From Bacteroidota bacterium (GTDB lineage Bacteria > Bacteroidota > Bacteroidia > Flavobacteriales > Flavobacteriaceae): a stretch of 49,434 nucleotides of DNA. The notes under the pieces are model-generated. The model did no database searches and was not told the origin of the DNA. It worked only from the letters and a program-made list of their open reading frames with translations. The stretch is taken from positions 1-49,434 of the forward strand of contig JAKQJQ010000143.1 in assembly GCA_029561105.1 (NCBI GenBank), in the 5' to 3' direction. Of the stretch, positions 3,620 to 48,214 are shown piece after piece. Positions within the stretch are counted from its first letter, which is position 1. Every line of letters begins with the position of its first letter. The position numbers and the translations under genes were made by a program.

Positions 3620-3662
3620 CAAAATTAGCAACCGGGCAAATCAATTACCATGACAATTATCA
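3620..3662 (-). promoter_or_regulatory. TGA-N6-TCA box plus -7 element for hemN
   Basis: Read on the minus strand: TGATAATTGTCA (3662-3651), 23 bp, then TAATTTTG (3627-3620), a perfect match to the Bacteroidetes -7 consensus TAnnTTTG. The hemN ATG lies 17 bases beyond. The site has Crp/Fnr geometry, and the same layout recurs at eleven other promoters in the window. Confidence 0.85.
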
Positions 3663-9092: not shown

Positions 9093-9620
9093 TTAGGGGT
9101 TGGGCAGGTCAACGTATTCACCGGGTAGTTTTATTTCATTGACGATTTCGTTGGTTTTTATCCATTTCGATGGGTCGACTTTTGACGTATCCACATCATA
9201 AATCAGGTCAATGAACGGCAGCACTTTCTCGCGTTGCACGATTTGTTTCTTGTAACCAAAAGCAAACCGTTCGCCACGCATCCTGAATTCGATGGTCTTG
9301 TTCGGGTTTGCTGTATTGCGGTAGATGATGGTCTGCGTTTTCCAATCGCCACCCCAAGTAAGGAAAGCCATTAAACCGCAAATGGCCAAGGTCGAGAACA
9401 AAATCACAAAAATCCCGCTCGATGTCTTCTCGCCAAAAACGTAAACCAAAAGCAACACGGGCAAAGCCGTGACGGCGATGTAGAATACCACGAAATGAAC
9501 CAGCGTGTTGTTGATATATAACGCCGTGTACCGATCCAGGATCAACAACGGCGCAGTAATGATAAACAGCACAATGGCTACACGCTCAATTAACAGTTGG
9601 TTGTTGGCTCTCTTTTTCAT
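9093..9620 (-). CDS. Membrane protein with C-terminal soluble domain, unknown; first gene of the stress operon
   Basis: 175 residues from the ATG at 9620; a longer frame begins at TTG (9641) and was not used. Three hydrophobic helices occupy about 10-30, 36-58 and 65-87, followed by a soluble tail with RMRGERFAFGYKKQIVQREK and ending GEYVDLPNP. I do not recognise the family. It is first of nine closely packed minus-strand genes running to 3692 and is preceded by a TGA-N6-TCA box and -7 element, so it marks the operon head. Confidence 0.7.
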   Translation of the reverse strand: MKKRANNQLLIERVAIVLFIITAPLLILDRYTALYINNTLVHFVVFYIAVTALPVLLLVYVFGEKTSSGIFVILFSTLAICGLMAFLTWGGDWKTQTIIYRNTANPNKTIEFRMRGERFAFGYKKQIVQREKVLPFIDLIYDVDTSKVDPSKWIKTNEIVNEIKLPGEYVDLPNP

Positions 9621-9652
9621 CTGCAAGCGAACATTTAGCAAATCTTATCTTG

Positions 9653-9695
9653 TAAAGTTACAGTCCGCAACAGAAAATAAATATGATAATTGTCA
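9653..9695 (-). promoter_or_regulatory. TGA-N6-TCA box plus -7 element for the nine-gene stress operon
   Basis: On the minus strand: TGACAATTATCA (9695-9684), 23 bp, then TAACTTTA (9660-9653), a 7/8 match to TAnnTTTG. The 12-mer is the exact reverse complement of the hemN box, since the palindrome is imperfect and lies in the other orientation. Confidence 0.82.
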
Positions 9696-11033: not shown

Positions 11034-11076
11034 CAAAACTACAGGTTGGCCGTACTTTAAAATATGATATAAGTCA
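11034..11076 (-). promoter_or_regulatory. TGA-N6-TCA box plus -7 element for the CoA-transferase gene
   Basis: On the minus strand: TGACTTATATCA (11076-11065), 23 bp, then TAGTTTTG (11041-11034), a perfect TAnnTTTG. The ATG at 11015 lies 18 bases beyond the -7 element. Confidence 0.85.
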
Positions 11077-21611: not shown

Positions 21612-24600
21612 ATGTTAGATAAAATTATGCAGTTCAGTATAAAGAACAAGTTCATTATACTGTTGCTTACCCTGGTTCTTGTGGCTTGGGGAAGCTATTC
21701 CTTAAAGAAATTGCCACTCGATGCGCTGCCCGATGTAACCAACAACCAAGTACAGGTTATCACGACAGCACCCACGCTTGCGAGCCAGGAAGTCGAGCAA
21801 TTGATCACCTATCCCGTAGAACAGTCGGTCAAAACCATCCCAAAGGTAGTTGAAATGCGCAGTATTTCGCGTTTTGGGCTTTCGGTCGTGACCGTTGTAT
21901 TTGAGGAGTCGGTTGATATTTATTGGGCGCGCGAACAAGTGTTTCAACGCTTAAAGCAAGCCGAGAACAATATTCCCGACTACGCCGGTGCTCCAGAGCT
22001 GGCACCAATCACCACCGGTCTTGGCGAAATTTACCAATACGATGTCTATGCGCAAAAGGGCTACGAGGAAGAGTACGATGCCACCCAACTCCGTACCATC
22101 CAGGATTGGATCATCATCCCGCAATTGCAAGGCATACAAGGTGTGGCCGAAGTAAGCACTTGGGGCGGTTACCAAAAGCAATATGAAATATCGGTCAACC
22201 CAAACCGCATGAACAGTTCGGGCGTGACGATTACTGAGATATTTGAGGCGCTCGAAAAAAACAACCAGAATACCGGCGGCGCATATATCGAGAAAGACCA
22301 ATATGCCTATTTCATCCGCGGTGTTGGGATGGCGAGCGGCATCACCGACCTGGAAAATATCGTCGTGAAAAACAGGAATGGTTCACCGGTATTGGTGCGC
22401 GACGTGGCTACGGTACGCAAAGGTACCGCAATCCGCTATGGCGCGACCACCAAAGATGGCAAAGGTGAGATTGTTGGCGGCTTGGCCCTGATGCTCAAAG
22501 GCGAGAATTCGAGCGCGGTAGTTGAACGGGTAAAGCAAAAAATGGTGCAAATCAACAAGACGTTGCCCCAGGGCGTGGTAGCCGAAGCCTTTATAGACCG
22601 CAGCAAACTAGTAGACAACGCCGTAGGAACCGTGACCAAAAACCTCATAGAAGGCGCACTCATCGTGATTTTGGTGCTGATCTTGTTTTTGGGGAACCTG
22701 CGTGCGGGATTGATCGTCGCTTCGGTGATTCCGTTGGCGATGCTTTTTGCGGTGATCCTGATGAACCTTTTTGGTGTCAGCGGTAACCTGATGAGCTTGG
22801 GCGCGATTGACTTTGGGATTATCGTGGATGGTGCTGTAATCATCGTCGAGGCTACGATGCACCATCTGTTCAGGCTCAAGCGCAGCACCAATCTCACCCA
22901 AGAAGAGATGGATGCCGAGGTGTACCGATCGGCATCTAAAATCCGCAACAGCGCGGCATTTGGTGAAATGATTATTTTGATTGTATACCTCCCAATCCTT
23001 GCACTTGTGGGCACCGAAGGAAAAATGTTCAGGCCTATGGCGCTTACCGTTGGGTTTGCCGTGATCGGCGCCTTCTTGCTGTCACTGACTTACGTCCCTA
23101 TGATGAGCGCATTGTTCCTTTCTAAGAAGACGCAGCACCAAACCAATTTCAGCGACCGGATGATGGCTTGGTTTGAGAAAATCTACACTCCGTTTTTACA
23201 GAAAGCACTACAATTCAAGCGACTCGTTTTGTCTATCGCACTCGGTTTGTTTTTGGCGGCCTTATTGGTATTCAACCAAATGGGAGGTGAGTTTATCCCG
23301 ACGATAGAAGAGGGCGATTTGGCGATCAATGCCACGATCATGACCGGGAGTTCGCTATCACAGATGGTGGCAACCGCTACCGAATACGAGAAAATGCTCA
23401 AAGCAAAGTTCCCCGAAATCAAAACCATCGTCACCAAAATGGGCAGCGGCGAAATCCCCACAGACCCGATGCCTATTGAAAGCGGCGATTTGATCATCGT
23501 ACTCAAGGACAAATCAGAATGGACGAGCGCCGACAATTGGGAAGACCTTGCCAACCTCATGAAAGCTGAAATGCAGAAAATACCAGGCGCGGCTGTAGAG
23601 ATTTCGCAACCCATCCAAATGCGTTTCAATGAACTTATGACCGGAAGCCGCAGCGACATCGCCATCAAGATTTTTGGCGATGACCTCGAAGTGCTCGACA
23701 ATAAAGCCAAGGAAATGATTCTCAAAATCGGGAAAATTGACGGAATTGGAGACCTCAAGGCCGACAAGGTTACGGGTTTGCCGCAAATCACCGTCAAGTA
23801 TGACTATGCCAAAATAGCGCTTTACGGACTCAACATCGCCGACATCAACCACATTATACGCGCCTCGTTTGCGGGGCAAAGCGCAGGCAAAATCTATGAA
23901 GAAAGCAGACGCTTTGATGTGGTGGTGCGTTTAGAGAAAGACAGCCGCTCGGGTCTCGACGACGTGAGCAACCTGTTCATCCCGTTGCCCAACGGCCAGC
24001 AGGTACCGCTTTCGCAGGTAGCCACGATAGCCTATGAGCAAGGCCCAGTACAGGTAAGCCGCGAGAATGGCAAGCGCCGCATTACCGTTGGGCTCAATGT
24101 GCGTGGGCGCGATGTAAAAAGCGTGGTGGGCGAAATACAGCAAAAGCTGGAATCGGGTTTTAATTTACCTGCCGGTTATTACGTGACCTATGGTGGGCAA
24201 TTTGAAAACCTGGTCGAAGCCAACAAACGTTTGTCTGTCGCTTTGCCTATTGCTTTGGGACTGATTTTGGTACTGCTTTATTTTACGTTCAATAGCGCCA
24301 GGCAAGCAGCTTTGATTTTCACGGCGATTCCATTGTCGGCTATTGGCGGTGTTTTTGCCTTGTGGCTACGAGGGATGCCATTTAGTATTTCGGCAGGGAT
24401 TGGATTTATTGCGCTTTTTGGAATCGCGGTACTCAATGGTATTGTGTTGCTGTCGTATTTCAATCAGCTCAAGGCCGAAGGTGTTGAGGATTCGTTGCAG
24501 CGCGTCATCACCGGAACCAAAGTCAGGCTGCGTCCGGTGTTGATGACCGCAGCGGTGGCTTCATTGGGTTTTATGCCGATGGCTTTATCTACGAGTGGCG

Positions 24601-25922
24601 GCGCCGAAGTACAAAAACCGTTGGCTACCGTAGTCATCGGCGGACTCATTACGGCCACGCTACTCACACTGGTGGTGCTCCCGATTTTGTACTTGTTGTC
24701 AGAAAAAACAACCCAATTGAAAAAGATGAATTTGAATAAAACGTTGACGGTCTTCCTGCTCCTTGCCAGTGGATTGACTTTCGGACAGATCAAAACCGTG
24801 AGCTTGCAGCAAGCGATTGCCATCGCCAAACAAAACAGCACCGAACTCAAGATAGCCGATAAGGAAATCGAGAAGCAGACGCTGCTTAAAAAGACCGCAT
24901 TTGAGGCCGATCCGTTGCAGGTACAATATCAAGGCGGGCAATTCAACAGTGGCGATTACGACCATAATTTTTCGGTGCAGCAATATTTCCCGATCGGGTC
25001 GATGGCTGCCAACCGCAAGCTCCAGGAAGAACTGGCCAAGCTCGCCGCGAAGCGCAAGGCGATTTCTGAATACGAGGTCGAAAAAGCAGTTTCATTGGCT
25101 TATTACCAATACCTGTATGGTGTTTCACTGCGAAAGCTCAATAGCGAACTCGCCGAAATCTATACCCGATTTTTAAAAAACGCCGAACTGCGTTTTGAAA
25201 CCGGTGAAAGCGGCAAGATCGAGGTCATCAGCGCCAAAGCCAAGATGAAGGAAATTGAAACGCGTCAGGCCCAGCTCAATTACGAACTCGAGATTTACGC
25301 CAAACAATTGCAGTATTTCCTGCAGACGCAGGAAGCTATCGTGCCCGATGAAACGGTAGCGCTGCAATATGAAATGCCCACTACAGCCGACCAGTCAAAA
25401 GAAGACGGTCTTTTAGAAGGTTATTACGAGCAGCAAATTTCGGTCTACCAAAAGGAGGCAGCGACTTTTAGTGCGCGGCGTTTGCCCAAACTGGGATTGG
25501 GGTATTTTGCGCAGAGCATCGACACCCAATTCTACTATCAGGGATTTACGGCTGGCGTGCAGTTGCCGTTGTTTGGAGGCTCAAATACCGCGAGGGCCAA
25601 AGCGTCACGGCTCAGTGCAGACCAGATTAGGTTTGAATTCGAAAAAGAAAAAATGGCATTGACGTTGCGCAAATCCCAACTGCAAAACGAATATGAAAAA
25701 CAGAAAAAAGGACTTGCCTATTACCAGAACGAAGGTGCGCAATACGCCGAGCAGATCATAGCAAGCGCGCAGAAAAGTTATGCCAACGGCGACATGGGTT
25801 ACTGGACCTACATCGGTTTTTTAAACCAGGCCATCGACATCAAGAAACAACATGCAGAAACCCTGAACCAGTATAACCAGAGCGCCATCGGGCTGCAATT
25901 TCCATCCATTCCCAATAACTAA
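21612..25922 (+). CDS. czcA: CzcA/CusA heavy-metal RND transporter fused to a TolC-like outer-membrane channel
   Basis: 1436 residues, far longer than ordinary CzcA (about 1040). Residues 1-1038 are a complete heavy-metal RND pump: N-terminal helix, two periplasmic loops, and the HME signature DFGIIVDGAVIIVEA in transmembrane helix 4. Residues 1039-1436 are TolC-like; they begin MNLNKTLTVFLLLASGLTFGQ, which looks like a full signal peptide with a cleavage site, and continue with helical coiled-coil repeats (QQAIAIAKQNSTELK). The fusion is in one frame with no break. It is followed three bases later by the adaptor gene, giving a complete tripartite system. Ion specificity cannot be set; divalent cations or copper/silver are likely. 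Confidence 0.95.
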   Translation: MLDKIMQFSIKNKFIILLLTLVLVAWGSYSLKKLPLDALPDVTNNQVQVITTAPTLASQEVEQLITYPVEQSVKTIPKVVEMRSISRFGLSVVTVVFEESVDIYWAREQVFQRLKQAENNIPDYAGAPELAPITTGLGEIYQYDVYAQKGYEEEYDATQLRTIQDWIIIPQLQGIQGVAEVSTWGGYQKQYEISVNPNRMNSSGVTITEIFEALEKNNQNTGGAYIEKDQYAYFIRGVGMASGITDLENIVVKNRNGSPVLVRDVATVRKGTAIRYGATTKDGKGEIVGGLALMLKGENSSAVVERVKQKMVQINKTLPQGVVAEAFIDRSKLVDNAVGTVTKNLIEGALIVILVLILFLGNLRAGLIVASVIPLAMLFAVILMNLFGVSGNLMSLGAIDFGIIVDGAVIIVEATMHHLFRLKRSTNLTQEEMDAEVYRSASKIRNSAAFGEMIILIVYLPILALVGTEGKMFRPMALTVGFAVIGAFLLSLTYVPMMSALFLSKKTQHQTNFSDRMMAWFEKIYTPFLQKALQFKRLVLSIALGLFLAALLVFNQMGGEFIPTIEEGDLAINATIMTGSSLSQMVATATEYEKMLKAKFPEIKTIVTKMGSGEIPTDPMPIESGDLIIVLKDKSEWTSADNWEDLANLMKAEMQKIPGAAVEISQPIQMRFNELMTGSRSDIAIKIFGDDLEVLDNKAKEMILKIGKIDGIGDLKADKVTGLPQITVKYDYAKIALYGLNIADINHIIRASFAGQSAGKIYEESRRFDVVVRLEKDSRSGLDDVSNLFIPLPNGQQVPLSQVATIAYEQGPVQVSRENGKRRITVGLNVRGRDVKSVVGEIQQKLESGFNLPAGYYVTYGGQFENLVEANKRLSVALPIALGLILVLLYFTFNSARQAALIFTAIPLSAIGGVFALWLRGMPFSISAGIGFIALFGIAVLNGIVLLSYFNQLKAEGVEDSLQRVITGTKVRLRPVLMTAAVASLGFMPMALSTSGGAEVQKPLATVVIGGLITATLLTLVVLPILYLLSEKTTQLKKMNLNKTLTVFLLLASGLTFGQIKTVSLQQAIAIAKQNSTELKIADKEIEKQTLLKKTAFEADPLQVQYQGGQFNSGDYDHNFSVQQYFPIGSMAANRKLQEELAKLAAKRKAISEYEVEKAVSLAYYQYLYGVSLRKLNSELAEIYTRFLKNAELRFETGESGKIEVISAKAKMKEIETRQAQLNYELEIYAKQLQYFLQTQEAIVPDETVALQYEMPTTADQSKEDGLLEGYYEQQISVYQKEAATFSARRLPKLGLGYFAQSIDTQFYYQGFTAGVQLPLFGGSNTARAKASRLSADQIRFEFEKEKMALTLRKSQLQNEYEKQKKGLAYYQNEGAQYAEQIIASAQKSYANGDMGYWTYIGFLNQAIDIKKQHAETLNQYNQSAIGLQFPSIPNN

Positions 25923-27158: not shown

Positions 27159-27599
27159 TCACAGGAAATAGGTCATGCGATTGGCGTCATAACGGTTGAA
27201 ATCCAGATTGCTGTTGACAAGGTTCCCGATGACTTTGCGCAACCGATTAAAATCGTAGGGTTTGTTGATGAACACGTCGGCACCTTCAGAAAAAATGGCC
27301 GAGGTATCGCGCAAGCGTGAGCCTGAATCATACACGACCAAAGGGCAATCCTTAAACGACTCGTGATCCCTGATTTGGCGTACTTCGTTGCAACAGGCAT
27401 CGGCGCTGCTGTTGGTGTCCAGGAAAATGATGTCGGTTTTGGTTTGGCTTTGGGTTTCCTCGACGGCTTTGTTCAGCGAATAATAGTAGCCCACATTACA
27501 TGGTTTTCCCAGTTGCAGAAACGCATTTTTAAACAGGACGCGTGTTTCTATGTCTTCGCCAATGAGCATGAGGTTGAGTGAATGGTCTGGTTTGGGCAT
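27159..27599 (-). CDS. Stand-alone response-regulator receiver domain
   Basis: 146 residues with only a receiver fold: acidic residues in GEDIETR, phospho-acceptor Asp61 in DIIFLDTN, the switch Ser92 and the invariant-type Lys113 in INKPYD. There is no output domain. It is divergent from the PAS histidine kinase gene (start-to-start 174 bases) and carries its own TGA-N6-TCA box, unlike the kinase. A phosphate sink or feedback partner for the kinase is a reasonable inference. Confidence 0.87.
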   Translation of the reverse strand: MPKPDHSLNLMLIGEDIETRVLFKNAFLQLGKPCNVGYYYSLNKAVEETQSQTKTDIIFLDTNSSADACCNEVRQIRDHESFKDCPLVVYDSGSRLRDTSAIFSEGADVFINKPYDFNRLRKVIGNLVNSNLDFNRYDANRMTYFL

Positions 27600-27639: not shown

Positions 27640-27682
27640 CAAAACTATAAATGCTGATGCCCAAAAAATATGATGCTCGTCA
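27640..27682 (-). promoter_or_regulatory. TGA-N6-TCA box plus -7 element for the stand-alone receiver gene
   Basis: On the minus strand: TGACGAGCATCA (27682-27671), 23 bp, then TAGTTTTG (27647-27640), a perfect -7 element. On the plus strand there is no -7 element at the mirrored position, so the box is directed to the receiver gene only. Confidence 0.83.
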
Positions 27683-27710: not shown

Positions 27711-27743
27711 TTTGAGATTTTTGGATTAAAATCGTTATTTTTG
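27711..27743 (+). promoter_or_regulatory. Housekeeping-type promoter of the PAS kinase-regulator operon
   Basis: TTTG at 27711-27714 and TATTTTTG at 27736-27743, 21 bases apart, 29 bases before the kinase ATG. There is no TGA-N6-TCA box, suggesting the sensor pair is made constitutively. Confidence 0.65.
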
Positions 27744-27772: not shown

Positions 27773-28960
27773 ATGAAGAATTCAGAACTCCTCCAAGCCA
27801 TTGTACAAAACGCGATAGACGGCATCATCACCATTGATGCCAAGGGAATCATGCAGCATGTCAACCCTTCGGCCTGCGCGCTTTTTGGATACGAACCACA
27901 GGCATTGCTTGGCAAGAATATCTCCATGCTCATGCCGCCGCCCGACAGCCAGCAGCACGACCAGTACCTGCGCCGCTACGACGTAACCCACCAACCACGC
28001 ATCATTGGCATTGGTAGGGAAGTGACGGGCTTGCGCAACGACGGGACGCGGTTCCCCATGAAATTAGGGGTGAGCGAGGTGAGGTACACCGATAGCGTTT
28101 TTTATGTAGGCTTTATCCACGATCTTACCAAACAAAAAGAAGATACAGAAAGGCTTAAGGAATATGCGCTGCATCTTGAAGAGCTCGTTGAAGTGCGTAC
28201 CCAAACGCTCCACGATACGATCCAGGAACTCGAGACGGCCAAAGAACAGATCAGTATTTCGCTAGAGAATGAAAAGGAACTCAACAGGCTCAAAAGCAGG
28301 TTTCTGTCTATGGCTTCGCATGAGTTCCGAACGCCGCTCAGTGCTGTGTTGTTATCGTCCTCGCTGATTGACAAATACGCCGAGCCGTATTGCAGCAATG
28401 AGATTATTAAGCATGTGGGGAAAATCAAAAGTTCGGTCGCCGGGCTGACGTTCATCCTCAACAATTTCCTGCAACTTGAAAAGCTCGAGAGCGGCAAGAT
28501 CGTCGCAGCCTACACCACCTTCGACCTAAGCGAGCTCGCCGAAGAGATTACCGAGGAAATGCAACTACTCGCCAAAGGTGCCCAAGTCATTACCTACACA
28601 CACAACGGCAATGAAACTGCCGTAACGTTAGACAAGAACCTGCTCAAGAACTCGATAGTGAATTTGATCACCAATGCGGTCAAATATTCGGGTGACAATG
28701 CCAAGATAGAATTTACCACCCAAATCGATACCGATACCATTACCATCACCGTAAAGGACAATGGCATCGGTATCCCAAAGGAAGACCAGAAGTATCTTTT
28801 CGATGCTTTTTTCAGGGCACACAATACAGGCAGCATTGCCGGAACGGGCTTGGGATTGAACATTGTGGCCCGCCATGTGGCGCTCATGGACGGAAAAATC
28901 AGTTTCAACAGCAGCGTAAACAAAGGCACTTTATTCACACTTTTATTCAACCGGATATGA
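27773..28960 (+). CDS. FixL-type PAS-heme sensor histidine kinase
   Basis: 395 residues, with no transmembrane segment, so it is soluble. Residues 5-118 form a PAS domain very like the heme PAS of FixL: MLMPPPDSQQHDQYLRRYD followed by IIGIGREVTGLRNDGTRFP. Aligned by eye with Bradyrhizobium FixL, His62 matches the proximal heme ligand His200, Arg68 matches Arg206 and Arg82 matches the oxygen-contacting Arg220. A coiled-coil linker (125-170) leads to the H-box SMASHEFRTPL with phospho-His183, then N, G1 and G2 boxes (NLITNAVKYS, DNGIGIP, GTGLGLNI). It overlaps the next gene by four bases (ATGA). Prediction: an oxygen- or NO-sensing kinase for the downstream regulator. Confidence 0.9.
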   Translation: MKNSELLQAIVQNAIDGIITIDAKGIMQHVNPSACALFGYEPQALLGKNISMLMPPPDSQQHDQYLRRYDVTHQPRIIGIGREVTGLRNDGTRFPMKLGVSEVRYTDSVFYVGFIHDLTKQKEDTERLKEYALHLEELVEVRTQTLHDTIQELETAKEQISISLENEKELNRLKSRFLSMASHEFRTPLSAVLLSSSLIDKYAEPYCSNEIIKHVGKIKSSVAGLTFILNNFLQLEKLESGKIVAAYTTFDLSELAEEITEEMQLLAKGAQVITYTHNGNETAVTLDKNLLKNSIVNLITNAVKYSGDNAKIEFTTQIDTDTITITVKDNGIGIPKEDQKYLFDAFFRAHNTGSIAGTGLGLNIVARHVALMDGKISFNSSVNKGTLFTLLFNRI

Positions 28961-30006
28961 CAAAAGTATTGATCATAGAAGACAACAACGACATCCGCGA
29001 GAACGTCGTAGAAATCCTGGCACTTTCGGGTTACGAGGTTTTCGAGGCCGACAACGGAAAGGTAGGCGCAGCGCTGGCCATTGCGCACCAACCCGACATA
29101 GTCCTTTGCGACATTATGATGCCGGGTATTGATGGTTATGCCGTGTTTGAAATCCTCCATGCCAACGAAACCACCAAGGCCATCCCGTTTATTTTCATCA
29201 CCGCCAAATCAGAACGGGTAGACGTACGCAAAGGCATGGAAATGGGCGCCGACGATTACCTCACCAAACCTTTTGACGATACCGAACTCATCGCGGCCAT
29301 AGAAAGCCGCTTGCGAAAAAAGCAAATCCAGCAAGAATTTTACAGTCAATCGCTTGAGCGCATCAGCGCCATGGTTTCTGGAAAAGATGGGCTCGACGCA
29401 CTCCAACAAGCCCTCGAGGATCGCAAGGTCAGGACCATCAAAAAGAAGCAACCCATTTACAACGAAGGCGACCGCGTCACCGGGATCTGGTTGTTGCTTT
29501 CGGGCAAAGTCAAGACCACTAAACTTACCGAGGACGGCCGCGAATTCCTTACCGGCGTTTTCAATCCCGATGAATTCCTGGCTACCAATGCCTTGTTTTC
29601 TGATGGGGTATACCTAGACAGCGCGGTGGCGTTAGAGGATTCGCATTTGGTGTTGTTTTCCAATGCGCAGTTTGAGGAATTCATCAACCTGTATCCTGAT
29701 GTGGCCGAAAAGTTCATTAAGATTTTATCCAACCAGATCCGCGAACGCGAAGAACACCTCATGCAATTGGCCTACAATCCGGTAAGAAAGCGGATTGCCG
29801 AGGCGTTACTGAGATTTTACAGGCAGCGCGACAACAGTGACAATAGCGTAAAGGTGAGCCGCAATGATCTCGCTGCAATGACCGGTACGGCACAGGAAAC
29901 CGTAAGCCGAACCCTAACCGACTTCTGCGATGAAGGCTTGATTGAAAAAGACGGCAATAAGATTTTGGTAGTGAGTGAACAAAAGCTTGAGCGGCTCAGG
30001 AATTAG
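28957..30006 (+). CDS. Receiver-cNMP-HTH(Crp/Fnr) hybrid transcription regulator
   Basis: 349 residues in three parts. Receiver 1-120 has Asp8/Asp9 region IIEDNND, phospho-acceptor Asp52 in LCDIMMPG, Thr82 and Lys104. A cyclic-nucleotide-binding-like domain (about 148-265) has IYNEGDRVTGIWLLLSGKV and a long dimerisation helix; no Fe-S cysteines are present. A Crp-type winged helix (about 275-345) has the recognition helix TAQETVSRTLTDF with Glu314, Ser317 and Arg318, the E-x-x-S-R pattern of FNR/FixK proteins that read TGA half-sites. It is coupled to the FixL-like kinase (ATGA overlap). It therefore joins FixJ-like input to FixK-like output and is the best local candidate to bind the eleven TGA-N6-TCA boxes. 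Confidence 0.93.
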   Translation: MTKVLIIEDNNDIRENVVEILALSGYEVFEADNGKVGAALAIAHQPDIVLCDIMMPGIDGYAVFEILHANETTKAIPFIFITAKSERVDVRKGMEMGADDYLTKPFDDTELIAAIESRLRKKQIQQEFYSQSLERISAMVSGKDGLDALQQALEDRKVRTIKKKQPIYNEGDRVTGIWLLLSGKVKTTKLTEDGREFLTGVFNPDEFLATNALFSDGVYLDSAVALEDSHLVLFSNAQFEEFINLYPDVAEKFIKILSNQIREREEHLMQLAYNPVRKRIAEALLRFYRQRDNSDNSVKVSRNDLAAMTGTAQETVSRTLTDFCDEGLIEKDGNKILVVSEQKLERLRN

Positions 30007-30664
30007 TTTTTTTGTTCTTAACGACCTGCAAGCGGTTGTCAATCTCTTTCACACCTGGTACACCACGAACAATTTTTTCGACGAGTTTTTTCTGGAAAAG
30101 TGTAGGAACATTTCCCAGAATGGCTACCGTATGCAAATCGAGACTGATATTGATATTTGATTGGATGAGCTCTTCGCTGTAGATGGCCGCGAGGATGTCT
30201 TTCTCGGTCACCGAAGGTTCTGGCTCGGTGGCAGTAGAAATGTTGTTTTGAATCGAACGAATCCCATCGATATAGGCAATGCAATCGGTGGCCAGTAATT
30301 TTTGGTATTTCCATTTGAGCGTACCGCCAAGGATAACATACCCTTCGTTTACCGCCACTTCGATATGCTTATGCGAGCTCCCGAAGTTTTTTTCGAATTT
30401 TTCGGCGATGGCTTGTGAAATTTGGCTATCGGTATGTTGGCTATCATTTGCAGGTTCTACGACAATCTGGTCGTCGATGCTCTTAATGCCCGACAGTTTC
30501 CTGATCGTAGCACACACCAAAGCTTTCTTAAAATAAAGATCCACGCTGCCTGATACCACAAGTTCGTGACCGCGGGTTTGCACCGAAACATGAGCGTTCC
30601 GCAAGAGCGGATCGGCTGCTATTTGTTGCGTTACTTTGAACTGTAAGCTTTCGTCGCTGTTCAT
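29996..30664 (-). CDS. Triple BON-domain protein (copy 2)
   Basis: 222 residues with three BON domains (about 3-68, 75-142, 149-216), the same length and plan as the gene at 8413-9081. Repeated elements are VSVQTRGHELVVSGSVDL, VAVNEGYVILGGTLKW and LDLHTVAILGNVPT. The first residues (MNSDESLQFKVTQQIAAD) differ clearly from copy 1, so the duplication is old. It converges on and overlaps the regulator gene by 11 bases at its 3' end. It is monocistronic with its own box. Confidence 0.88.
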   Translation of the reverse strand: MNSDESLQFKVTQQIAADPLLRNAHVSVQTRGHELVVSGSVDLYFKKALVCATIRKLSGIKSIDDQIVVEPANDSQHTDSQISQAIAEKFEKNFGSSHKHIEVAVNEGYVILGGTLKWKYQKLLATDCIAYIDGIRSIQNNISTATEPEPSVTEKDILAAIYSEELIQSNINISLDLHTVAILGNVPTLFQKKLVEKIVRGVPGVKEIDNRLQVVKNKKTNS

Positions 30665-30694: not shown

Positions 30695-30737
30695 CAAAAT
30701 TCGCGAAGCGACAGGGGCTGGAAAATGATATATATCA
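30695..30737 (-). promoter_or_regulatory. TGA-N6-TCA box plus -7 element for BON copy 2
   Basis: On the minus strand: TGATATATATCA (30737-30726), a perfect palindrome, then 23 bp and GAATTTTG (30702-30695), a 7/8 match to TAnnTTTG. The ATG lies 30 bases further on. Confidence 0.8.
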
Positions 30738-32064: not shown

Positions 32065-32107
32065 CAAAATTGAAATTAATAAATCATTGCGTATATGACT
32101 TTAATCA
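32065..32107 (-). promoter_or_regulatory. Shared TGA-N6-TCA box, decarboxylase-facing promoter
   Basis: On the minus strand: TGATTAAAGTCA (32107-32096), 23 bp, then CAATTTTG (32072-32065), 7/8 to TAnnTTTG. The same 12-mer serves nadA in the other direction. Confidence 0.8.
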
Positions 32108-34653: not shown

Positions 34654-34696
34654 TGATGAATGTCATATTTTGACTATTTCCTATTAAATAATATTG
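34654..34696 (+). promoter_or_regulatory. TGA-N6-TCA box plus -7 element for the ScdA/Ric gene
   Basis: On the plus strand: TGATGAATGTCA (34654-34665), 23 bp, then TAATATTG (34689-34696), a 7/8 match to TAnnTTTG. The ATG lies 70 bases beyond, the longest leader of the set. Confidence 0.82.
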
Positions 34697-44540: not shown

Positions 44541-44583
44541 TAAAGGTAGCATCCCAAACCTGGAGAGAAAGTGATATTTGTCA
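44541..44583 (-). promoter_or_regulatory. TGA-N6-TCA box plus -7 element for the OsmC gene
   Basis: On the minus strand: TGACAAATATCA (44583-44572), 23 bp, then TACCTTTA (44548-44541), 7/8 to TAnnTTTG. The ATG lies 33 bases beyond. Confidence 0.82.
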
Positions 44584-48171: not shown

Positions 48172-48214
48172 TAAATTTAACGCAAGCATTTTTTTCAAAA
48201 ACTGACATCTGTCA
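48172..48214 (-). promoter_or_regulatory. TGA-N6-TCA box plus -7 element for the cstB-like operon
   Basis: On the minus strand: TGACAGATGTCA (48214-48203), 23 bp, then TAAATTTA (48179-48172), 7/8 to TAnnTTTG. The ATG lies 23 bases beyond. Confidence 0.82.

Follow-up and report, generated by a model that had tools for sequence, protein, structure and literature searches.

A FixL-like kinase and a receiver-Crp regulator as a candidate oxygen switch in Flavobacteriaceae

The systems closest to the one considered here are built around FixL in rhizobia and Caulobacter. In FixL, a histidine serves as heme ligand and an arginine lies near the bound oxygen, and FixJ, the receiver protein of the rhizobial cascade, carries a NarL/LuxR-type output domain. 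Rhizobial FixK is described as a Crp/Fnr-type activator devoid of an iron-sulfur (Fe-S) cluster, acting at TTGAT-N4-ATCAA dyads (PMC4999443, PMC7888657); in the hFixL-FxkR-FixK system of Rhizobium etli and R. leguminosarum, an Fnr-type sensor is reported to coexist with FixK and to share boxes with it (PMC7888657), and FixT of Caulobacter is presented as a receiver-only inhibitor of FixL (PMC7078487). Here we have analysed a stretch of 49,434 nucleotides from a bacterium of the Flavobacteriaceae (GenBank assembly GCA_029561105.1, contig JAKQJQ010000143.1, positions 1 to 49,434, forward strand; hereafter the window), in which two coupled genes at 27773-30006 encode a FixL-like PAS kinase and a regulator that joins a receiver to a Crp-type activator. 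On the strength of sequence comparison, we consider an oxygen-sensing pair to be the best explanation of this locus, and a reasonably probable one. In the open-licence literature that we searched, we found neither a description of such a FixL-like kinase/receiver-Crp pair nor a study of FixL-type sensor use in aerobic Bacteroidota (Flavobacterium, Mucilaginibacter, Pedobacter).

The sensor kinase (27773..28960, plus strand; 395 residues) is composed of a PAS domain (residues 6-117; 27788..28123; Pfam E 6.4e-21), a HisKA domain (174-241) and a HATPase_c domain (287-392). Its best match in the PDB is a FixL heme domain, aligned by phmmer without any gap over residues 7-130 (E 3.4e-29), and the top seven of the 77 matched PDB sequences are six FixL and one other histidine kinase. 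In this alignment, His62 (codon 27956..27958), Arg68 (27974..27976) and Arg82 (28016..28018) face the H, R and R of FixL "RHDSYISRY...IIGIGR", residues 200, 206 and 220 of FixL; by homology, the PAS domain is predicted to bind heme with His62 as axial ligand. His183 (28319..28321), within a SHEFRTP motif, is the predicted phospho-acceptor and is invariant in a kinase alignment. The score of 162.2 bits against the NCBIfam equivalog model of rhizobial FixL stays far under the cut-off of 850 bits, and for this reason we speak of a FixL-like kinase and not of FixL. The highest hydropathy mean over 19 residues is 1.17, with no strongly hydrophobic stretch, and the kinase is probably soluble.

The start codon of the regulator (28957..30006, plus strand; 349 residues) overlaps the stop codon of the kinase in an ATGA (28957..28960). 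Its receiver domain (residues 4-116; 28966..29304; Pfam E 1.3e-29 for the protein) is closest to PleD/PhoB-type receivers, and both Asp52 (29110..29112), the predicted phospho-acceptor, and Lys104 are invariant in an alignment of 31 sequences. Next come a cNMP_binding-fold domain (159-244; 29431..29688) and a Crp-type helix-turn-helix (HTH_Crp_2, 278-347; 29788..29997). The recognition helix AQETVSR (29890-29910), set beside TVETISR of FNR and SRETVGR of CRP from Escherichia coli, displays the FNR-like Glu-x-x-Ser-Arg, and a Gln precedes the Glu where CRP has Arg. At the places of Glu72 and Arg82 of E. coli CRP, the contacts of cyclic AMP (cAMP), the alignment puts Thr and Leu, so that these contacts are not kept. 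Cys51 and Cys324 are the only cysteines, hence an FNR-type cysteine cluster for a [4Fe-4S] centre is missing. AlphaFold models of the kinase and the regulator were of medium confidence (mean predicted local distance difference test 78.0 and 82.5, predicted template modelling score 0.47 and 0.41) and contribute little past the folds: for the kinase, the top Foldseek hits were a WalK model and LOV-FixL chimera kinases, and for the regulator the hits include CRP, FNR and, at rank 36, FixK2. A first-pass annotation of this DNA had already proposed heme residues in FixL register, ATGA coupling and a receiver fused to a Crp-type module with an ETVSR helix, and each of these proposals is borne out here.

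A GTDB scan with the regulator gave 561 confirmed matches, the best 80 of which were kept; most of these come from Mucilaginibacter, Pedobacter and Flavobacterium, the nearest named locus (75%) belonging to a metagenome-assembled genome of a pond Flavobacterium. A kinase lies directly beside the regulator in 70 of these best 80 loci, and the 70 adjacent kinases carry the phospho-acceptor His in all cases, Arg82 in all cases, His62 in 69 (Asn in one) and Arg68 in 59, which makes His62 and Arg82 the best kept of the three predicted heme residues. In wider samples, 20 of 150 genomes of the host genus, taken as Flavobacterium from this nearest locus, have the regulator (E 1e-50), as do 54 of 120 family genomes (E 1e-40) and 55 of 395 phylum genomes (E 1e-60), all of them lower bounds given that few candidates were scored per genome. 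A His occupies the ligand place in 53 of 75 loci of these samples (24/27 for the phylum, 18/29 for the family, 11/19 for the genus), loci whose flank lacks a kinase being counted as misses. The recognition helices fall roughly into ETVSR, xES/TLIR and TETAIR types; ETVSR and xES/TLIR loci mostly come with H-x-R PAS kinases and TETAIR loci come without a matching PAS. Nine loci (L010-L015, L017-L019) hold such TETAIR-helix receiver-Crp paralogues next to a kinase without matching heme PAS; judged from sequence, they form a related system that would use another sensor. Plasmids of Runella and Hymenobacter (NZ_CP030856, CP014769, NZ_CP114768, NZ_CP007144) also encode relatives of the whole kinase (37-39% identity over 97%).

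Could the PAS domain sense something besides oxygen, such as nitric oxide (NO), carbon monoxide or redox, or hold no heme at all? Five related kinases (L163, L171, L172, L173, L289) have Tyr at the heme-ligand place, which may mean either loss of heme or ligation by Tyr, and the predicted targets include ScdA_N/hemerythrin and rhodanese genes, which would also be compatible with NO or sulfur stress. We nevertheless regard such a sensor as quite improbable, considering the conservation of His62 and Arg82 across the 80 loci, the FixL heme domains as nearest solved relatives and the many box-linked genes of fermentative or low-oxygen type.

The candidate operator is the dyad TGAYN4RTCA (six fixed bases; hereafter box), which we examined together with the Bacteroidota -7 element TAnnTTTG, scored at five or six of its six bases. 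The window contains 11 such sites; two (606, 42945) are intragenic and 8 are intergenic, although intergenic DNA makes up 7.6% of the window by our own gene list. For all 8 intergenic dyads, which were chosen before the spacing was looked at, the dyad centre and the start of a -7 element, on the strand of a downstream gene, are exactly 29 bp apart, the element being exact in three. A scan for this geometry added a ninth dyad, at 32096, lying inside an over-long open reading frame (ORF) call and serving both strands; with its two promoters, which are post hoc, the 29-bp spacing is seen at 10 of 10 window promoters, compared with 6 of 770 for the other distances between 12 and 89 bp. Class II activators of the CRP/FNR type are centred at -41.5. 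All 8 intergenic window dyads have that very position once the transcription start is inferred from the -7 element, since they lie 29 bp from an element whose first T is placed at -12 by PMC6847099, and this fixed geometry marks the boxes as promoter elements. Over 482 kb of the host genome, including 20 stretches picked for box matches, 18 dyad/-7 pairs stand at 29 bp (49 other distances average 1.4, with 0-4 each, and five control triplets give 0-2), and as 10 of the 18 lie inside the window, the latter is a dense regulon island. The pair had been described as lying amid the boxes that it could read while its own promoter has none, and both statements held: one dyad is near the kinase promoter, albeit at the wrong distance, as set out below.

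The boxes accompany the pair well beyond this genome. Around the 80 pair loci we counted 289 intergenic boxes where 9.8 were expected from coding DNA, the first rank among 64 triplets (the runner-up by ratio gave 47 versus 10.0), and the 20 Flavobacterium pair loci hold 65 versus 3.5 expected; arbitrary loci gave 3 boxes per 39,307 intergenic bases in 20 cases from pair-bearing genomes and 3 per 44,283 in 20 from pair-less genomes. The 29-bp spacing also forms the main peak (74 hits) at the 80 loci, accompanied at 26 bp by a side peak of 24 hits for which we have no explanation, and the exact -7 element was seen only 107 times over 387 box-gene combinations. A dyad core of six fixed bases is short, and ordinary repeats or chance AT-rich palindromes might be invoked; with the first rank near pairs, the background level at arbitrary loci and the exact 29-bp geometry, the probability of this explanation is negligible.

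At the pair loci, the box often comes in duplicate. A second dyad (five or six of six bases) is located exactly 22 bp away for 190 of 286 dyads at the 80 pair loci, where other distances average 4.2 and the highest, at 23 bp, reaches 19; the same holds for 33 of 64 dyads at the 20 Flavobacterium loci. Among twins with an exact -7 element, the upstream dyad stands 51 bp from the element in 55 of the 68 listed cases, and the downstream dyad 29 bp from it in 10 of 14, which places the two at -63.5 and -41.5, and we infer that adjacent dimers would cooperate on one face of the DNA. In the phylum sample, at least three exact tandems are present in 28 of 55 regulator-positive genomes versus 16 of 340 others (Fisher 8e-17, relatedness ignored; the 16 were counted by eye from a table and recounted), the others including missed regulators because only 5 candidates per genome were scored in the regulator search. 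The link persists inside the window's own class (24/31 versus 5/18, p 0.001). Seven genomes (G593, G628, G475, G704, G346, G503, G595) have at least three exact tandems, yet no match to the regulator was found in them at our threshold; they may reflect missed regulators or another reader.

The most serious rival for these boxes is a stand-alone Fnr-like protein of the same genome (C289:4104-4781, locus L137), one of eight cNMP-domain matches that include the regulator. It has a CxxC near its N-terminus and adjoins a copper-ATPase gene, which we take to be ccoI-like, and a Usp-like gene; 29-bp boxes of a subtype of their own precede these two genes and a further neighbour, presumably ccoS-like. 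It might read most or all of the window boxes, leaving to the pair few promoters or something else. Matches to it occur in 135 of the 150 genus genomes (E 1e-30), far more than the 20 with the regulator, and its locus in 20 pair-less genomes bears 36 intergenic boxes versus 2.7 expected. We had considered that the boxes belong to the pair merely by nearness, and this was rejected, Fnr loci of pair-less genomes carrying boxes too. The Fnr-locus boxes (51, from 20 pair-less and 7 pair-bearing genomes) are narrower, approximately TATGAYAWWTRTCATA, position 5 being A in 91% of their half-sites versus 26% at the 80 pair loci, and stem mainly from two orthologous promoters of the same region, that of ccoI and a second one. 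At the pair-less loci, 16 of the 34 boxes with 29-bp spacing stand before ccoI and 17 of the other 18 are, by position, at the second promoter. No dyad among the 51 from Flavobacterium Fnr loci has a 22-bp partner (0/36 and 0/15), and a second spacing peak at 16 bp (15 hits) comes from the opposite side of divergent promoters.

Several observations do weigh against the pair as reader of the window boxes. By log-odds of the two subtypes, boxes 3651 and 9684 score Fnr-like (7.5 and 7.4), and 11065 and 30726 are ambiguous (1.1 and 2.0). None of the 8 window dyads has a partner at 22 bp, even at four of six bases, and the host genome is devoid of exact tandems, its six one-mismatch tandems comparing with one in the control; of five that were examined, a single one, C109:11249, displays promoter geometry, its -7 element (five of six bases) being 29 bp off and followed by a gene for 136 residues. 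Within the genus, the link between exact tandems and regulator is weak (at least one tandem in 10/20 versus 32/130, p 0.03), and we infer that the window's clade mostly depends on single dyads. The triplet test showed no enrichment of intergenic boxes (rank 20 of 64) in the 20 stretches of the host genome picked for box matches, and E-x-x-[ST]-R helices occur in two more Crp-type proteins of that genome. Finally, 13 Sphingobacteriaceae loci of another cysteine-poor stand-alone Crp protein, some of them near a pair, have boxes as well (22 versus 3.0), and as 11 of these 22 possess a 22-bp partner, this protein could read tandems too. Genus-wide counts of AARTGAYN4RTCAY, judged by eye, did not separate pair-bearing from pair-less genomes.

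Against the Fnr-like protein as general reader stand its narrow box subtype and the near-restriction of its 29-bp boxes to two promoters in pair-less genomes, the box at 27671, which is clearly pair-like by score (-12.4), and the genome G207 (100% complete, one contig), where the regulator is present, no Fnr-like match was found at 1e-30, and 29-bp boxes nonetheless precede homologues of the radical-SAM (66%) and BON (40%) genes of the window, the latter box falling in DNA that our ORF list took as coding; G207 thus favours the pair as reader. Boxes 34654, 44572 and 48203 are mildly pair-like (-2.6 to -4.1). Taken altogether, reading of most window boxes by the Fnr-like protein seems unlikely, and the likeliest arrangement is one in which the pair and Fnr share the boxes, as is described for FixK and FnrN in Rhizobium (PMC7888657). 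The first-pass annotation had named the pair as the best candidate controller of the regulon. The candidacy stands, on co-conservation, the box island, the class II position and the 22-bp signature; sole control is not supported, in view of the Fnr-like protein and boxes 3651 and 9684.

As for the genes behind the boxes, the minus-strand boxes at 3651..3662 and 9684..9695, both of Fnr-like subtype score, precede a radical-SAM gene, which we assume to be hemN-like, and the gene 9093-9641; those at 11065..11076 and 30726..30737, also on the minus strand, precede an acetyl-CoA hydrolase/transferase gene and a BON-domain gene (29996-30664, Pfam). The dyad at 32096..32107 sits between a pyridoxal-phosphate-dependent decarboxylase gene (minus) and nadAB (plus), with a -7 element 29 bp off on each strand. 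A plus-strand box at 34654..34665 serves a ScdA_N/hemerythrin gene, and minus-strand boxes at 44572..44583 and 48203..48214 an OsmC-family gene and a metallo-beta-lactamase/rhodanese gene. Elsewhere in the window, a CzcA-type transporter and a TolC-like outer-membrane factor, as we presume them to be, read as one open frame of 1436 residues (21612-25922). At the pair loci, where clusters were named from one Pfam-scanned member each and counted prior to the 29-bp rule, the box-linked genes are led by D-2-hydroxyacid (lactate-type) dehydrogenase (53 loci), Usp (21), L,D-transpeptidase (12) and BON (11), followed by YceI (6), alcohol dehydrogenase (5), Hsp20 (3) and, in two loci each, phosphoketolase, acetate kinase and a FixG-type protein; Pfam gave no match for two sizeable clusters, of 17 and 13 loci. 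To these the window adds the radical-SAM, acetyl-CoA hydrolase, ScdA_N/hemerythrin, OsmC and metallo-beta-lactamase-rhodanese genes, and we read the predicted targets as a low-oxygen and stress gene set.

One box deserves separate treatment. The dyad TGATGCTCGTCA (27671..27682) lies 29 bp from the exact -7 element TAGTTTTG (27640-27647) of a divergent gene (27159..27599, minus strand) for a receiver-only protein of 146 residues (Pfam 29.8 bits, just below the cut-off of 30.2). In the other direction, the ninth box-gene combination that we tried, it is 59 bp from TATTTTTG (27736..27743, plus strand), the probable -7 element of the kinase operon. By this spacing the box serves the receiver gene and not the kinase, and the 29-bp layout is kept in two relatives (L039, L177). 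These two also keep Asp61 of the receiver-only protein, which is Asn in L047, L048, L055 and L182 and Tyr in L066. The protein contains four cysteines (34, 69, 70, 85), Cys69 recurring in six of eight homologue rows, a pattern that looks too loose for calling an Fe-S site. By analogy it is possibly FixT-like, feeding back on the kinase. Autoregulation of the kinase operon, first suggested because 57 of 81 loci have a box ahead of the kinase, was rejected for the window by the spacing. It is likely in part of the relatives, whose kinase promoters fit at 29 bp in 2 and at 30 bp in 9 of 91 cases with an exact -7 element, and in 44 of 91 at five of six bases and 28-31 bp (of the same 91, six control settings gave 4-6, three others 12-18, and the two at which the 22-bp twin should fall 25-27).

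We propose the following chain of events for the oxygen-sensing pair. The kinase would be cytosolic and hold heme in its PAS domain, with His62 as ligand and Arg82 near the bound oxygen, as in FixL. Oxygen binding would keep the kinase off, and a drop in oxygen would release autophosphorylation on His183, from which the phosphate would pass to Asp52 of the regulator; phosphorylation, not cAMP, would switch on its Crp part. A regulator dimer would then occupy TGAYN4RTCA centred at -41.5 for class II activation, in many relatives with a second dimer alongside at -63.5 (22 bp, two turns), and turn on low-oxygen and stress genes. Fnr would share some of the sites, chiefly at cco genes, and the box-controlled receiver-only protein may exert on the kinase a feedback like that of FixT on FixL. 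A bolder proposal, which is tentative and toward which we lean rather sceptically, is that of a Bacteroidota-wide oxygen switch in which a heme kinase acts in one step on a receiver-Crp protein, phosphorylated receivers pair Crp dimers on -41.5/-63.5 tandems and the receiver-only protein damps the kinase, three adjacent genes forming an equivalent of FixL-FixJ-FixK-FixT assembled independently of rhizobia. If the oxygen-sensing reading is true, both sensor and regulator can be named for aerobic Bacteroidota, together with their targets and a precisely placed operator (-41.5, often with its twin 22 bp farther upstream); oxygen control in these bacteria would become directly testable, and the regulator would exemplify a Crp-type activator under the control of phosphorylation.

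How does this locus compare with the described systems? The regulator resembles FNR, FnrN and FixK in its Crp fold, its Glu-x-x-Ser-Arg helix and its class II position, and differs from them by the N-terminal receiver and from FNR by the lack of an FNR-type cysteine cluster. It agrees with FixK, as far as residues can tell, in having neither the Fe-S cysteines nor the cAMP contacts, but is fused to a receiver, whereas FixK stands alone and is made from a FixJ-induced gene; it departs from CRP through Thr and Leu in place of the cAMP-contacting Glu72 and Arg82, and from FixJ in that its output consists of cNMP_binding and HTH_Crp_2 domains and not of a NarL/LuxR-type helix-turn-helix. The receiver-only protein would parallel FixT as a receiver-only product under a FixL-type pathway (as FixT is described in PMC7078487; on the window side this is predicted), with four cysteines at 34, 69, 70 and 85 that do not reproduce the 53/56/59/64 spacing given for FixT and, unlike FixT, with an Asp61 replaced by Asn or Tyr in more distant homologues. 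The hFixL-FxkR-FixK system shares with the pair a FixL-type sensor and a regulator other than FixJ (PMC7888657), whereas its sensor is a hybrid kinase, FxkR reaches fixK by way of a K-box and three steps are involved. The rhizobial FixL-FixJ-FixK cascade offers the nearest analogy: both would have a heme PAS kinase of FixL type, a receiver that accepts its phosphate and a final Crp/Fnr-type activator. In the pair, however, a single protein unites receiver and Crp activator and leaves no FixJ-to-FixK transcription step, the receiver is PleD/PhoB-like, the box TGAYN4RTCA is without the outer TT/AA and the promoters are of Bacteroidota type. The notion of a two-protein FixL-FixJ-FixK equivalent, put forward in the first-pass annotation, can accordingly be retained in the sense of "works like" and not in the sense of membership, the regulator being no fusion of FixJ with FixK. 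If our reading is true, two proteins do what nitrogen-fixing rhizobia do with three, a variant on the FixL/FixK theme that would provide a natural comparison for the benefit of the extra transcription step.

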